From contig NZ_JMME01000013.1 in assembly GCF_000686945.1 (NCBI RefSeq), forward strand, positions 1 to 64,000: DNA of 64,000 bases. Reading direction: 5' to 3'. The notes under the pieces are model-generated. The model had not been told where the DNA came from. It did no database searches and saw nothing but the letters and a program-made list of their open reading frames with translations. The DNA is from Selenomonas sp. AE3005. GTDB taxonomy: Bacteria > Bacillota > Negativicutes > Selenomonadales > Selenomonadaceae. The position numbers were made by a program, and so were the translations under genes. Shown here in pieces: positions 5,747 to 10,559 of this stretch (positions within the stretch are counted from its first letter, which is position 1; each line of letters begins with the position of its first letter).

Positions 5747-6286
5747 TTATGCCTTATTCTCGATAAAGCTGTACAAAGCCGCCAGCGAATCAGCATAGAA
5801 TACTTCCCTGGCCCAGGGCTCTTCCAAAAAGCCCTCTTTCACCATGTGCCCCAAAAACTGCCGCAAAGGCTCATAATAGCCCTCGATATTCAGCAGGCAA
5901 AACGGTTTCGGCAGCTGACCGATTTTGTTGAGCGTCATGACCTCGGCAATTTCTTCCAAAGTGCCGATACCACCGGGAAAGGCCACAAACACATCGCCAA
6001 GTTCGCGCAGTTTCTCCTTGCGCTGTGCCATGGTGTCCGTGACAATCAGCTGGTCAATGGCGTCATACTGTATCTGCCCGTCCACAAAATAACGGGGCTC
6101 CACGCCGATGACCTTGCCGCCGGCCTCTATAACGGCCTCTGCCAGCGCGCCCATCAGCCCCACCCGGCTGCCGCCGTAAATAAGGGTATGCCCCGAGCGT
6201 CCGAGCCATGATCCCAACTCCGTCACCGCCTGCCGGAAAACCGGTCTGTTTCCCTCACTTGAACCCAGATAAACCGTAACGTTCAT
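5747..6286 (-). CDS. LOG family protein (nucleoside 5'-monophosphate phosphoribohydrolase-like)
   Basis: A 179-residue Rossmann-fold protein of the TIGR00730/LOG family. It shows the two signatures of the group: YGGSRVGLMG (about 37-46) and PGGIGTLEE (about 104-112), the latter holding the catalytic glutamate. Characterised members cleave cytokinin ribotides or AMP into the base and ribose 5-phosphate. The old annotation as lysine decarboxylase is unsupported. The start ATG 6286 follows TTGGAGG. It begins 18 bases after the P-type ATPase stop, so it is probably the last gene of that operon. A link to metal handling is not evident. Confidence 0.85.
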   Translation of the reverse strand: MNVTVYLGSSEGNRPVFRQAVTELGSWLGRSGHTLIYGGSRVGLMGALAEAVIEAGGKVIGVEPRYFVDGQIQYDAIDQLIVTDTMAQRKEKLRELGDVFVAFPGGIGTLEEIAEVMTLNKIGQLPKPFCLLNIEGYYEPLRQFLGHMVKEGFLEEPWAREVFYADSLAALYSFIENKA

Positions 6287-6304
6287 TAAAAGACCTCCAA
6301 CGAT

Positions 6305-8410
6305 TTATCGCTGCCGGCGGGCATAGCCGCGTTTGCTGGGTGTGAGGATTCGGCAGCTGTTCAAGACCACCGCCAGGGTAGCAGTATTATGAATTACCGC
6401 CGCCCACAGGGGATTTATCTTGCCCAAAGCACCCAGGAGCATAGCCGAAGAATTGACCAAAATGGTAGCCATGAAATTCTGGTGTACCAGGTCCATGGTG
6501 CGCCGTCCCAGGTCCAAGGCCTCCATCAGACGCGACGGGTCCTCGGAGTGAATGGTCACAGCCGAAGATTCAGCCGCAATATCCGTCTGCCGTCCGCCCA
6601 AAGAAACGCCCACATCAGAGAAAGCCAGCGCCGGGGCGTCATTTATGCCGTCCCCTACCATCATAACCGTACCGCGCTGTTTGAGCTTGTTCACATAATG
6701 TGACTTATCCTCCGGCAGGATTTCCGCATAGTAGGAATCAATATCCATGCTGTGCGCGACTTCAGCCGCCACTTCCTTGCTGTCACCGGTGAGCATGACG
6801 ATTTCGTCCACCCCATGACGGCGCATCTGGTTAAGCGTCTTTTTCATCTTGGGACGCACAGGGTCCTCGATACCGATAATCCCCAACAGCTGCTTGTCGC
6901 GGGCCACATAGAGGAGGTTTTTAAATGTCTGCCCCTCTGCGAGGCCTTCCGTATCTTCAATGCCATTTTCACGCAGGAATTTCAGGCTGCCGACACGCAC
7001 GAGGCCGCCCTTGTACCCTTCGAAGTCAGGAACTTCGGCCTGCATGCCCCGGGCCACAATGGTCTTGGAGGACTTATGCTGCGGCGAAGTCCATTCCTTG
7101 CCCTGCACGTATTTCTGAATAGCCACAGCCAAAGGATGAACAGAATGCTGCTCGGCGGAGGACGCCAACAGAATCATTTCCTTTTCTTCCACGCCCTTGG
7201 TCGTCTTGATAAAAGCAATCTGCGGAATCCCTACCGTGAGGGTGCCGGTCTTATCCAGCACCACCGTATCGGTTTCTGCCAGAGCCTCGATGTAGTTGCC
7301 GCCCTTGACCAGAATACCGCGCTTGGCAGCAGCCCCGATGGCCGCCGACATAGCCGTAGCCGTGGACAGTTTCAGACCGCAGGAGAAGTCGATAAACAGC
7401 AGGTTCAGCACACGCTGCCAGTCACGGGTTGCCCCGTAGACAATCCCGGCACCGATGAAGGAAATCGGTACGAGGAAGTTGGCCATCTTATCGGCAAAAT
7501 TCTGTACCGGCGCCTTGCGGTTCTGCGCCTCCTCCACCAGATGGACGATATGGGCCAGCGAGGTATCCTTGCCGACCTTTTCCACCTTGATGGTAAGCTC
7601 ACCAGCCTCCACCACACTGCCGGCATACACCGCCGATTCAGCATGTTTCATGGCCGGATTCGATTCACCGGTAATGGAGGCCTGATTGACCGCCGCATCA
7701 CCATTGATAACGTGGCCGTCCACCACGATTTTTTCACCGGTATGGGCCGCAATAACGTCCCCAACCTTCACCTGCTCGACGGGAACCTTGCGCTCCACAT
7801 CACCTTCCACCAGCCACACATAACGCTGGTCAAGAGACAACAGGCCGGAAATATGGGTACGTGCTTTCTCTGCCGCATAACTAGTGAGCATTTCCGCACC
7901 GTTGGACAAAGCCAGCAGCGTCAGACTGGACTCCGGTTTCCCGGCCAGTACCGAGGCAATCACCGCCGTAGCGGTCAAGGTGTCGGCATTGGGCTGGTGG
8001 TCCTGCACCACACCCTGCACACCATTCTGAATGAACTTACGGGCAATGCCGAGCACCAGCAGGCTGCGCAGCACCGTAGCTCCGGCAAAAGCCGCCGGCG
8101 AAGTACGTTTTAAGATTTCCATGCTGGCAAAGCTGGCCAAAGACATCACGGCGTCACGGCGGTATTCTGCCAGACGTTCGGCCGGCGTAACAGCTGCCTC
8201 CTGTGCCTTCTTGACCACTTCAATCAGCATTTTCTGAATCTGTTTTAACTGATAGGGCGTCATTTGCCGCTTGTACCAAAGATGTACCTTGCGTTCATCA
8301 ACCGTTACCGCCACGACATTGCGGTTGCGGCGGATTTTGGCGGCCAGTCTGGCCCGTTCCTCATGGGACAGAACTGCCTGCAAATGAAAATAACAATTTC
8401 CGTATATCAT
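6305..8410 (-). CDS. P1B-type heavy-metal ATPase without CPC motif (FezB-like candidate)
   Basis: A 701-residue metal-transport ATPase. It has the actuator loop TGES (about 247-250), phosphorylation site DKTGT (386-390), nucleotide-binding SVHP and hinge GDGIND (586-591). In the transmembrane helix where P1B pumps carry CPC, CPH or SPC it has SCGLK (343-347). The first 70 residues look like a degenerate HMA-like domain without a CxxC metal site. An ATG at 8410 forms an ATGA overlap with the upstream gene. In-frame ATGs at 8422 and 8449 are alternatives. Three neighbours carry related HMA-like domains. An odd P1B pump with such partners is the composition of ferrosome loci, where FezB is a P1B-6 ATPase. 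Iron as substrate is therefore inferred, not shown. Confidence 0.88.
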   Translation of the reverse strand: MIYGNCYFHLQAVLSHEERARLAAKIRRNRNVVAVTVDERKVHLWYKRQMTPYQLKQIQKMLIEVVKKAQEAAVTPAERLAEYRRDAVMSLASFASMEILKRTSPAAFAGATVLRSLLVLGIARKFIQNGVQGVVQDHQPNADTLTATAVIASVLAGKPESSLTLLALSNGAEMLTSYAAEKARTHISGLLSLDQRYVWLVEGDVERKVPVEQVKVGDVIAAHTGEKIVVDGHVINGDAAVNQASITGESNPAMKHAESAVYAGSVVEAGELTIKVEKVGKDTSLAHIVHLVEEAQNRKAPVQNFADKMANFLVPISFIGAGIVYGATRDWQRVLNLLFIDFSCGLKLSTATAMSAAIGAAAKRGILVKGGNYIEALAETDTVVLDKTGTLTVGIPQIAFIKTTKGVEEKEMILLASSAEQHSVHPLAVAIQKYVQGKEWTSPQHKSSKTIVARGMQAEVPDFEGYKGGLVRVGSLKFLRENGIEDTEGLAEGQTFKNLLYVARDKQLLGIIGIEDPVRPKMKKTLNQMRRHGVDEIVMLTGDSKEVAAEVAHSMDIDSYYAEILPEDKSHYVNKLKQRGTVMMVGDGINDAPALAFSDVGVSLGGRQTDIAAESSAVTIHSEDPSRLMEALDLGRRTMDLVHQNFMATILVNSSAMLLGALGKINPLWAAVIHNTATLAVVLNSCRILTPSKRGYARRQR

Positions 8411-9048
8411 ACGGTACGCCATCCTCTCATCAACGTCACAGCCCACCATAACATTTGCGAACCGGAGGGATACTGACCTGTAAGCAGCATTTTACGCAGG
8501 CCCCTTAGCAGGAACAACAGGGAGGCCAGTGAACTCATGTCAAACCAGCCGCAGGTATGGTCCTTAATCCACTGGCTGAAAGCTCGGGCCGTATTGCGTA
8601 CACTGCGCGTAATGGAACCGGCATGGGCCTCACTGCCAGCCAGCAGAGCCATCTTCGCCTTGTTCAGCGGACTGCTGAAGAACTTATTCTCCAGCCACTT
8701 GGCCAACTGGTCAATGCTGGCCTCATCGGCCTCCGCAAAGGTCAGCAGAATGCTGCCGCTGACAGCATTTACGCTTACAGACTGCACATAGCTGAGCTTT
8801 ACCAGCTGTTCTTCGAGCAGTTTCGCCAGTTCCGGGGACACCTTGCCCACACGGTAACGGCGGCGTCCCGGCAGGCTGGATACCAGTTTAAAGCTCTGGG
8901 CCGGGCAAACGGCTTTTAAAGCCGCTTTTTTCAGCTGACAGCCAGCTGCAGGTCTTGGCCCGGCAACCGATGCACCGCCTCCGGCTACCATACGGCGAAT
9001 GCTCTTGCCGATAGCCGCCCCCATCATAAATCCAGATACATACGACAT
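8407..9048 (-). CDS. Membrane protein with PGRxR-type HMA-like domain (ferrosome-locus type candidate)
   Basis: A 213-residue protein. It starts with a Gly-rich hydrophobic segment (GFMMGAAIGKSIRRM, glycine-zipper-like). Residues about 52-126 form an HMA-like ferredoxin fold beginning SSLPGRRRYRV and containing VSVNAVSGSILLTF. A hydrophobic region near the end (SSLASLLFLLRGL, QMLWWAVTLM) is likely membrane-embedded. The CxxC that binds soft metals in classical HMA domains is absent. GGAGG lies 7-8 bases before ATG 9048. The gene starts three bases after the preceding HMA-like gene and overlaps the ATPase start, so it is tightly coupled. A role as partner or scaffold for the pump is inferred. 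Confidence 0.8.
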   Translation of the reverse strand: MSYVSGFMMGAAIGKSIRRMVAGGGASVAGPRPAAGCQLKKAALKAVCPAQSFKLVSSLPGRRRYRVGKVSPELAKLLEEQLVKLSYVQSVSVNAVSGSILLTFAEADEASIDQLAKWLENKFFSSPLNKAKMALLAGSEAHAGSITRSVRNTARAFSQWIKDHTCGWFDMSSLASLLFLLRGLRKMLLTGQYPSGSQMLWWAVTLMRGWRTV

Positions 9049-9051
9049 TCG

Positions 9052-9351
9052 TTATTTCCTCCTTGCATGAGTCATAATATATTCTTCCACCTTGCGCAAT
9101 TCCGCATTCCGGCGAAGTCTTTCCGGCTGATAAAGGATAAGTATAGAACCCGACGTGGTATTAGTCTGTACGCTGTCTATCTCCGCAAACGCCATCAGCT
9201 GTGCCTTAACCTGCAGCTCCAGCTCACTATTGCCAATGAGATTATTAGAATACAGCCGTACCCGTCCCGGCAGATAGGACGATATTTCCACTGAACGGAT
9301 GAATAAATCCAACTTATTGGTTGGGATTTGCATTTTACCCAGCAAACTCAA
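9052..9351 (-). CDS. Small HMA-like domain protein with PGRVRL motif
   Basis: About 99 residues, almost entirely one HMA-like domain: SSYLPGRVRL (about 25-34), then VQTNTTSGSILILYQPE. It has no CxxC and no clear membrane segment. The first in-frame GTG (9366) lies on top of the Shine-Dalgarno. TTG 9351 has GGAGGG seven bases upstream and is the better start. ATG 9333 has no ribosome site. It ends three bases before the 213-residue HMA-like gene. Function unknown; the repeated fold suggests hetero-oligomerisation or metal delivery to the ATPase. Confidence 0.75.
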   Translation of the reverse strand: MSLLGKMQIPTNKLDLFIRSVEISSYLPGRVRLYSNNLIGNSELELQVKAQLMAFAEIDSVQTNTTSGSILILYQPERLRRNAELRKVEEYIMTHARRK

Positions 9352-9372
9352 ACTCTTTCCCTCCACATTATA

Positions 9373-9406
9373 AGAAAAGACTGCCGCATAAAAGAGCGGC
9401 AGTCTC
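9373..9406 (-). terminator. Terminator-like hairpin inside the HMA/ATPase cluster
   Basis: Arms AGACTGCCGC (9378-9387) and complement (9396-9405) are followed on the minus strand by TTTTCTT. It lies after the 69-residue gene and before the next HMA gene, so it may attenuate rather than end transcription. Confidence 0.7.
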
Positions 9407-9422
9407 TTTTCGTCAAAAACGA

Positions 9423-9632
9423 TTATTTAGCCTTTTTTGCTTCCTGTGCAGCAATGAGGTCTTCCAGAGCCTCTTTCTGACGCTGCAGTTCAGCCATCGG
9501 CAGTTCAGCAGCTGGTTCAGCCTGCTGCATAGCAGCCAGCTGAGCTTCGCGCTCCTGCATAAAACGATAGCCAAAGATACCAGCAACAGCACCTACAGCC
9601 AGACCAATCCAAAAATCAGTTTTCTGGAACAT
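9423..9632 (-). CDS. Small membrane protein with Ala/Gln/Glu-rich coiled-coil tail
   Basis: A 69-residue protein. One membrane helix near the N-terminus is rich in small residues (WIGLAVGAVAGIFGY, about 8-22). A charged, Ala/Gln/Glu-rich tail follows that should be helical or coiled coil (REAQLAAMQQ, RQKEALEDLIAAQEAKKAK). AAGGAGG lies before ATG 9632. It is the first gene after two tandem promoters and precedes the HMA-like proteins and the ATPase. No family was recognised. In context it could anchor or shape a membrane compartment, which is speculation. Confidence 0.75.
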   Translation of the reverse strand: MFQKTDFWIGLAVGAVAGIFGYRFMQEREAQLAAMQQAEPAAELPMAELQRQKEALEDLIAAQEAKKAK

Positions 9633-9775
9633 CTAATCCATCCTCCTTAAAAATAAACATCCACAAACGGGTTATTCCCGTCTATAGCCAAAGTTTACAT
9701 GGGCATCCAAGTTTCCCCATTCTGCCATTGGAGAAGAAAACCAATAATGTAGAAATATTATCAATTTCATTCTTC

Positions 9776-9804
9776 ATAATAACAAAATTGAGAGTTCTTG
9801 TCAA
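9776..9804 (-). promoter_or_regulatory. Proximal promoter of the HMA/ATPase cluster
   Basis: On the minus strand TTGACA (9804-9799), 17 bases, TATTAT (9781-9776). TGATAAT and ATTATTG stretches lie just downstream and could be an operator, but no clear Fur box is seen. Confidence 0.75.
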
Positions 9805-9830
9805 TTCCCGATTATCTTTAACATAAATAT

Positions 9831-9860
9831 ATTATACATTTCTGATTTTTTAATTGTCAA
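9831..9860 (-). promoter_or_regulatory. Distal promoter of the HMA/ATPase cluster
   Basis: TTGACA (9860-9855), 18 bases, TATAAT (9836-9831) on the minus strand, about 55 bases upstream of the proximal promoter. Confidence 0.7.
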
Positions 9861-9891
9861 TAAATTAAGCACAATCATAAATAATTATTAT

Positions 9892-10034
9892 TTATAACGC
9901 CGTTGTTCCAGTTTTGCCGTAGGCAAAACTTCCTCTTGGCGTTTCAACGAGGCGGGAGATATGTGCTCACCGCCTGTTATGATATTCGCCCCCCCCACCT
10001 GCAGAGGTGGGGGACATCTTCTTCCGAGTTATAA
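9892..10034. repeat. Hairpin-rich intergenic repeat, copy A
   Basis: About 143 bp, nearly identical to 27077-27216. It begins TTATAAC and ends GTTATAA, a 7-bp terminal inverted repeat. Inside are an outer AACGCC/GGCGTT pair around the hairpin AGTTTTGCC-GTA-GGCAAAACT, a GGCGG/CCGCC stem, and a CCCCACCT/AGGTGGGG stem. It has no ORF. It sits between the two minus-strand transcription units of the HMA cluster. It could be a MITE or a structured intergenic element. Confidence 0.8.
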
Positions 10035-10051
10035 TTGACTCTCTTTCCCAA

Positions 10052-10537
10052 TTAGCTTTGTGACTCTGCCAGCCTGGCTATAGCCTTTTCCAGGGCTGCC
10101 AGCTTGGGCTTTTTCTGCAATTCATCAGGTTTATAGGTAATGAGCAGCGAACCCGTCAAGGGAGTTACCACCGCGCTTTTTACGCCTGTAAAGGATTTTA
10201 CATACTCCTCCACCGGCTGCTGCCACTGCGGATTGGCCGCCAAAAGCAAGCTGCGCAGGCGCACCCGGCCCGGCGTATAGGCATCTACCTGAAAGCTGTC
10301 CACCATGGCCGCCAGGGTGTTTTCCGCCGGCTCGCCAGCCTCCTTACACCAGGGAATACGACAGACATCAGCCTGCATTTTCTTGCGGTGCTGCCAGCCA
10401 TGCCATAGTGAAAGCACCGTCCATACCGCACCAAAACCGGCATGAAACCGCTTGCCGGCCACTAGTGTCGCCACGGTACCAATAGAGGCCAAAGTCAGCG
10501 GCAGCCCCAGAGGTAATGATTTAAACTTATCTTGCAT
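10052..10537 (-). CDS. Membrane protein with C-terminal PGRVRL-type HMA-like domain
   Basis: 161 residues from ATG 10537, chosen for AAAGGAGGG seven bases upstream. The longer frame to 10636 has no ribosome site. Residues 8-28 (LPLGLPLTLASIGTVATLVAG) and about 33-46 are hydrophobic, followed by a basic stretch. From residue 85 (DAYTPGRVRLRSLL) to the end is an HMA-like domain with AVVTPLTGSLLITYKPDE. No metal-binding CxxC is present; C59 and C64 lie in the linker. It is the third protein of this type in the cluster, on its own promoter. Function unknown, probably partner of the P1B ATPase. Confidence 0.78.
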   Translation of the reverse strand: MQDKFKSLPLGLPLTLASIGTVATLVAGKRFHAGFGAVWTVLSLWHGWQHRKKMQADVCRIPWCKEAGEPAENTLAAMVDSFQVDAYTPGRVRLRSLLLAANPQWQQPVEEYVKSFTGVKSAVVTPLTGSLLITYKPDELQKKPKLAALEKAIARLAESQS

Positions 10538-10559
10538 GAAAATCCCTCCTTTGCAGTTA

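Follow-up and report, generated by a model that had tools for sequence, protein, structure and literature searches.

The window analyzed here is a 64,000-nucleotide stretch of DNA from Selenomonas sp. AE3005 (contig NZ_JMME01000013.1), and its subject is a minus-strand gene cluster at positions 10537–6305 that encodes, in order of transcription, HMA_C, small69, HMA_A, HMA_B, and a P1B ATPase. A first-pass annotation had read this cluster as a variant of the fez loci that build ferrosomes. The cluster itself is real, its open reading frames lie where that annotation placed them, and a chance origin is excluded because the ATPase is present in 31 of 60 genomes of relatives (E ≤ 1e-120, its own genome counted) with the same neighbors. 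The features of the region are:

10052–10537, minus strand: HMA_C, hydrophobic N-terminal segments and an HMA_2 domain (PF19991, 36.6 bits)
9892–10034, no strand: ∼143-bp palindromic repeat between HMA_C and the other genes, outside the machinery (42 genome matches including this one)
9776–9860, minus strand: two sigma-70-like promoter matches 5′ of small69 (12/12 and 11/12; a match to consensus only)
9423–9632, minus strand: small69, Gly-rich hydrophobic segment FWIGLAVGAVAGIFGYR and a helical-looking tail (13-row alignment, hhalign)
9375–9408, minus strand: 13-bp terminator-like hairpin in the small69/HMA_A interval, a possible attenuator; similar hairpins follow the small gene in 9 of 31 relatives' loci, hence no general claim is made for it
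9052–9351, minus strand: HMA_A, HMA_2 protein with PGRVR, without CxxC and without an evident membrane segment (PF19991, 52.7 bits)
8407–9048, minus strand: HMA_B, HMA_2 protein with PGRRRY and long C-terminal helices (PF19991, 81.6 bits)
6305–8449, minus strand: P1B ATPase, IDFSCGLKLST in transmembrane segment 4 (TM4) and IHNTATL in TM6 (TIGR01525, family alignment, tree)
5747–6286, minus strand: LOG-family hydrolase, judged to be outside the system (TIGR00730, 152 bits)

Synteny of the cluster

The HMA_B reading frame overlaps the start of the ATPase open reading frame by at most 43 nt. Gene order is conserved among relatives: a core of small69, HMA_A (or a membrane HMA2 protein in its place), HMA_B, and the ATPase recurs in 34 loci around ATPase/HMA2 genes, and in some more distant loci the ATPase precedes the small gene. 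The nine closest relatives examined (L034–L042), whose ATPases are 87–89% identical to that of the window, have HMA_C (60–64% identical) directly 3′ of the ATPase; in Selenomonas sp. AE3005 it is displaced and lies upstream. About 420 nt part it from the other cluster genes, a stretch that includes the ∼143-bp repeat, and this copy adjoins the cluster at the point of the HMA_C displacement. Most of the 41 further matches to the repeat in the genome share ∼76–90% identity across at least about 140 bases; a few are partial.

The LOG-family hydrolase gene stands last, directly after the ATPase gene, and had been thought a possible member of the operon. It is found in none of the 34 relatives' loci (one of these, L061, ends just after the ATPase) and is ruled out as an operon member. 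Farther afield, a sample of 398 genomes from the phylum yielded the ATPase in 15 (E ≤ 1e-170, again with its own genome counted), and five genomes from the genus of Clostridioides mangenotii gave no ATPase match at 1e-150. A contig scan with generic P-type patterns (GDGxND, GEKIxVDG) covers only what is among the matches listed and is uninformative on distribution.

The ATPase and its partner proteins

The ATPase scores 523.7 bits against TIGR01525 (cut-off 346) and carries DKTGT, and so it has a P1B core. Its TM4 reads IDFSCGLKLST, with SCGLK in place of CPC as the first-pass annotation had it; the other two full-length P1B matches of the genome carry SCPC at this position. The N-terminus resembles a degenerate HMA2 domain that lacks PGRxR. 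In an eight-row family alignment DKTGT, TGE, GDGxNDAPAL, and the TM4 and TM6 motifs are invariant, including H687 and N688 of the TM6 sequence IHNTATL. The HN pair is present in all 103 ATPases of the SC[GA] type, which were chosen by the TM4 pattern D[FYW]xC[GA]x[KR], versus 17 of 67 with CPC, SPC, or CSC there (one of the 17, in L144, looks spurious). An SC-type TM4 motif with a basic residue and without CPC is what we take to be the published motif of the P1B-6 class. The HN motif is given as a P1B6 feature (PMC9374683) and Fe(II) as the P1B-6 substrate (PMC7558416). The presence of P1B-6 features in this ATPase, DFSC..K in TM4 and HN in TM6, is thus supported by its sequence.

In a tree of 66 ATPases from which the TM4 motif columns had been removed, the SCG type forms a clade of 20 rows with support of 100 and the SCA type one of 15 rows with support of 95, and 26 classical exporters are separate from them (99). 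Removal of two long-branch rows, L002 and the second ATPase of L072, before a second tree and the approximately unbiased (AU) tests gave supports of 100, 99, and 99, respectively. Grouping with Cu, Zn, or Mn exporters had been named as the outcome that would speak against a ferrosome pump, and the window ATPase stands apart from the exporters of these metals that were sampled. In L072 (3106–8202), a metagenome-assembled genome (MAG) of Anaerosolibacter, two P1B ATPases are neighbors, each with an N-terminal PGRxR; one of them has CPKP for CPC and a very long branch, and a 139-aa Gly-rich protein lies between them.

The profile search that had been proposed for the three HMA-like proteins places all of them in PF19991 (HMA_2), at 81.6 bits for 8407–9048, 52.7 for 9052–9366, and 36.6 for 10052–10537, above the cut-off of 30. 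The HMA_A start chosen in the first-pass annotation (9351; TTG, MSLLG) is preferable to that at 9366 because several relatives' genes begin there. Each protein has the described PGRxR motif and lacks CxxC, but the strand said to be SGSxLxxY/F in all three holds as such in two: HMA_A reads LPGRVRL...SGSILILY and HMA_B LPGRRRY...SGSILLTF, and HMA_C reads TPGRVRL...TGSLLITY, with TGS instead of SGS. Invariant positions are P28, G29, R30, and R32 of HMA_A (24-row and 22-row alignments) and R62, R64, G98, D170, and W202 of HMA_B (24-row and 23-row alignments), so each has an invariant Arg pair. The supposed HMA-like fold is indicated by the HMA_2 profile, whereas the structural comparison is equivocal. 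The AlphaFold2 model of HMA_A is alpha/beta with a mean predicted local distance difference test (pLDDT) score of 87.6; its agreement with HMA domains is moderate (Z 4.4–5.3) and tied with that to RNA polymerase L/K subunits, and a Foldseek search with it gave no match at E ≤ 0.001. For HMA_B the model has pLDDT 81.1 and a predicted template modeling score of 0.46, and a search of solved structures returned nothing significant.

The multiplication of HMA2 genes, which had seemed peculiar to this locus, is ordinary for SCG-type clusters: within 5 kb of the ATPase three HMA2 genes are present in 23 of 53 SCG loci, two in 28, and one in 2. Clusters of Priestia, Fusobacterium, and Clostridia can likewise have three, so the idea that triplication is a novelty of this locus is rejected. 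These counts use a profile built from at most 14 proteins of the same loci plus the window.

The predicted small69 protein (69 aa), described before as a membrane/coiled-coil protein, combines a single hydrophobic segment rich in Gly with a tail that looks helical, QKEALEDLIAAQEA; it has no His-rich tail, and no Pfam or NCBIfam family scored above its cut-off. Thirteen aligned rows are invariant at F7, G10, G14, G18, G21, and Y22, and in the tail at E48, L49, Q52, K53, E54, L56, E57, D58, I60, and A61 (ELxxQKExLEDxIA). By hhalign it is homologous (97%) to the small proteins of clostridial and Fusobacterium clusters.

Layouts and iron-related neighbors in other genomes

For comparison, 170 ATPase neighborhoods were counted, with 6 ATPases of unclear motif left out. 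The SC[GA] set of 103 loci, 53 SCG and 50 SCA, was collected by similarity searches, and its members are mutually related. An HMA2 gene lies within 5 kb in 53 of the 53 SCG loci, and a small69-type protein is encoded in 51; the contigs of the two without it (L065 and L071) measure 5.2 and 7.4 kb. Priestia megaterium plasmid pBM400 has the five-gene order HMA2, HMA2, ATPase, HMA2, small gene, with three genes labeled "HMA2 domain-containing protein" in the record. The same order is present in Fusobacterium vincentii (L068) and in seven genomes of the family of C. mangenotii (L181–L187), and part of it precedes the contig end in a Bacteroidales contig (L071). The F. vincentii record (NZ_CP084075.1, 2.1 Mb), which is classed as a plasmid and has a single annotated feature, looks chromosomal.

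ATPases with DFSCALK- or DYSCAIK-like motifs occur in Lachnospiraceae, methanogens, and 4-Mb genomes of the family of C. mangenotii; HMA2 genes are absent beside them, and most have a different small Gly-rich transmembrane protein. Among SCA loci, 38 of 50 have this protein (type A6) and no HMA2 gene; the A6-type member of L178, the only one covered by the Pfam scan, is DUF6110 (79.8 bits). The remaining 12 fit no small-protein model: two are methanogen loci near contig ends, and ten belong to the order of a Hyphomicrobiales MAG, with HMA2 present in six of these ten. Across the 103 loci the layout with small69 and HMA2 and that with the A6-type protein are unmixed. The models for the small proteins comprise 13, 8, and 8 rows, which come almost entirely from the counted loci, and one model (A5) also contains the window row.

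Single SCA loci deserve mention. Methanogen contigs of Methanobrevibacter and Methanovirga (L081, L085, L089) bear SCA-type ATPases, and L089 adds an A6-type small protein. In the order of the Hyphomicrobiales MAG, L205, L206, and L208 have an SCA-type ATPase near feoA/feoB plus an HMA2 gene, and L206 encodes, upstream, a different protein of 134 aa whose hydrophobic segment is close to the C-terminus.

The association of ATPase type with the ferrous-iron uptake genes feoA/feoB is shown by counts. One or both lie within 5 kb in 25 of 103 SC[GA] loci versus 1 of 67 CPC/SPC/CSC-type loci (P = 1.2e-5), with the Feo reference sequences taken from L181, L096, L189, and L206, all within the counted set, and with classical loci that are shorter (mean flanks 8.1 kb versus 9.3 kb in all). 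When one locus is counted per cluster of similar sequences, the figures are 20/70 versus 1/66 at 80% identity, 14/52 versus 1/53 at 70%, and 7/30 versus 1/39 at 60% (P = 0.01). The order on a single strand is feoA-feoB-HMA2-HMA2-ATPase-HMA2-small in L181 and feoB-HMA2-HMA2-ATPase-HMA2-small in L189. Fur-box-like sites, scored against a 19-position consensus within 300 nt upstream, match at 14 of 19 positions or better in 23 of the 103 loci (3.2 expected from dinucleotide shuffles) and at 16 or better in 5 (0.03 expected). This control replaces an earlier contrast of 6 sites of at least 16/19 in 46 kb with 2 in 460 kb, which set intergenic-rich against mostly coding DNA. A search of the Selenomonas sp. 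AE3005 genome (99.96% complete) with the ferritin family PF00210 gave two weak matches only (L247 and L248), whose rubredoxin-like CxxC pairs mark them as probable rubrerythrins; nothing in this family search stood out as a ferritin or Dps.

Ferrosome-type compartment or efflux platform

Ferrosomes, P1B-6 pumps, and the P1B6–DUF6110 association are already in print. In C. difficile, CD630_05910 (the ATPase) and CD630_05920 (a hypothetical protein) are fezAB (PMC11651100); low iron and mutation of fur each raise the levels of both (RNA log2 ∼1.9–2.8, protein 5.2–7.5), with a Fur box at CD630_05920 (PMC6311696), and the ferrosomes of this species require FezA and FezB (PMC12574912). Some ferrosome clusters include a DUF4405-like cytochrome, FezC (PMC11334425), and the Rhodopseudomonas palustris cluster RPA2333–2338 is a multi-gene fez locus, like the window cluster in the multiplicity of its genes; Desulfovibrio magneticus has a ferrosome cluster as well. 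In our set the C. difficile pair is presumably L178 (genome G498), where an ATPase at 711.6–713.7 kb has a small gene at the higher coordinate, which fits CD630_05910/05920; its ATPase is the presumed FezB row of the tree. Like the window, this locus has the DFSC[GA]LK motif in TM4, HN in TM6, and an adjoining gene for a small Gly-rich transmembrane protein with a helical tail. The Priestia pBM400, Fusobacterium, and clostridial clusters have the window's own kinds of gene (HMA2 genes, an ATPase of its clade, and a small transmembrane/coiled-coil protein), but they end with the small gene and have the third HMA2 gene after the ATPase, whereas in the window small69 stands ahead of the HMA2-ATPase genes and the third HMA2 gene is displaced. 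Another relative in kind is the actinobacterial PacL/Ctp "effluxosome," a DUF1490 protein with a P1B6-like ATPase, in which a small Gly-motif transmembrane protein also lies beside a P1B pump (PMC9374683, PMC13043812) and the pump shares the HMA2-like N-terminus and the HN motif (PMC9374683); it differs in the CPC of TM4, in Zn/Cd efflux, and in the metal-binding PacL1. PacL gathers Ctp pumps in membrane platforms for metal resistance, and clusters of PacL2 require one lysine and two glycines of its transmembrane segment (PMC13043812); the Gly-rich segment of small69 is comparable.

These comparisons suggest, with a probability somewhat above even, that the cluster codes for a P1B-6 ATPase that handles iron, together with dedicated assembly partners; the most likely outcome is an iron-filled vesicle of the ferrosome type. 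We infer that the pump would export cytosolic Fe(II) by way of a transmembrane site with [FY]SC for CPC and a lysine three residues on, and that small69, proposed as an assembly or scaffold partner, would bring pumps together in the membrane, the role that PacL has for Ctp pumps. The HMA2 proteins, two or three in number, might dock on the N-terminal region of the pump through the invariant Arg pair, as adaptor or regulatory domains and not as CxxC metal carriers. The end product is probably an iron-storing vesicle, by analogy with C. difficile, whose ferrosomes need FezA and FezB. The earlier ferrosome proposal is supported by the P1B-6 features, the feo-linked ATPase type, and the pairing of a pump with a small Gly-rich membrane protein as in the presumed fezAB, and it loses the LOG hydrolase and the HMA multiplication as a peculiarity.

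Several observations weigh against the ferrosome-type reading. The presumed C. difficile locus differs from the window in its DFSCALK motif, in a small protein that is DUF6110, and in having no HMA2 genes alongside, and its FezB is 31.6% identical to the window ATPase over 656 residues. Small69 had no DUF6110 match at E ≤ 1 in the Pfam scan and shows only a weak likeness to that family by hhalign (48%; 7.7% for its clostridial and Fusobacterium kin); it had no DUF1490 match in the same scan and no similarity to one PacL sequence (0.4%). Kinship of small69 with DUF6110 or PacL is thus unsupported. DUF6110 and DUF1490 have themselves been described as related small transmembrane partners of P1B6 and P1B6-like ATPases (PMC9374683), a link not reproduced here with one PacL sequence (hhalign 0.6%). 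The best Fur-box match of the window cluster, 13/19, is equaled in 29 of 100 shuffles and is within chance, so a Fur box at this operon was discarded; tblastn found no feoA/feoB in the window beyond a 12-residue match (E = 0.44), and the genes that flank the cluster encode BioY, a Crp-family protein, a thioredoxin, and, by reading, an Lrp-like protein. Finally, AU tests rejected none of the constrained groupings: SCA with SCG, the clade that would include FezB, has P = 0.28, SCG with the classical exporters 0.24, and SCG with PacL-type pumps 0.08. Since the deep order of the tree is compatible with several groupings, P1B-6 membership rests on the motifs, that is, HN in TM6 and the loss of CPC.

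The most serious competitor to a ferrosome-type vesicle is a plain Fe(II) efflux or detoxification pump in the plasma membrane, with small and HMA2 proteins that merely stabilize or cluster it and no organelle. This is unlikely but would have the same genetics, with the feo neighbors and Fur-like sites of relatives, and the Ctp pumps clustered by PacL do serve metal resistance (PMC13043812); on the other hand, in C. difficile the ATPase and the small membrane protein are needed for the organelle (PMC12574912), and the rise of that pair at low iron (PMC6311696) is not expected of a detoxifying pump, although both points come from the SCA type. Less probable still is a platform that expels a different divalent metal (Zn, Cd, or Mn), akin to actinobacterial PacL/CtpC. 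A PacL-linked pump of Rhodococcus whose N-terminus is HMA2-like (AGRIRV) and whose TM6 has HN points that way, as does the unrejected grouping of SCG with PacL-type pumps, but the PacL-type pumps seen keep CPC where SCG pumps have a single Cys and a basic residue three on, Feo is near only one of the CPC/SPC/CSC-type loci, and small69 lacks the His-rich tail. The replacement of two CPC residues, the Pro and the first Cys, together with the Lys in TM4, could even mean that the odd site moves no metal and that the ATPase complex is regulatory rather than transporting; the intact, invariant catalytic and TM4/TM6 motifs make this very improbable.

The cluster is best read as a second layout of P1B-6 iron pump plus assembly partners, and it probably forms ferrosomes. 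A broader and more tentative claim, which we rate as possible but somewhat doubtful, is that of a second iron-organelle architecture, composed of the SCG clade of P1B-6 ATPases, a coiled-coil membrane microprotein outside DUF6110, and two or three arginine-type HMA2 adaptors, and spanning didermic Firmicutes, Clostridia, Fusobacteria, Bacteroidales, and Bacilli (plasmid-borne in the last). Its source would be a split deep within the ferrosome systems or else a separate origin; both are possible because the tree fits SCG–SCA sisterhood and other groupings alike. The literature searched contains no paper that connects ferrosomes to DUF6110 or HMA2 clusters; the founding ferrosome papers, which lie outside it, may list the HMA2 layout.

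Ferrosomes have so far been demonstrated in few bacteria. If the reading given here is true, an iron organelle would be present in many didermic Firmicutes, in some clostridia and fusobacteria, and would even be encoded by a Priestia megaterium plasmid, and the Arg pair that is invariant in the HMA2 proteins would give a way into the question of how these compartments are filled or take their shape. Comparison of the DUF6110 layout with that of HMA2 and coiled-coil proteins would serve to test which components are required, and the plasmid-borne cluster of P. megaterium, a laboratory species that is harmless, makes the question of an organelle directly testable.

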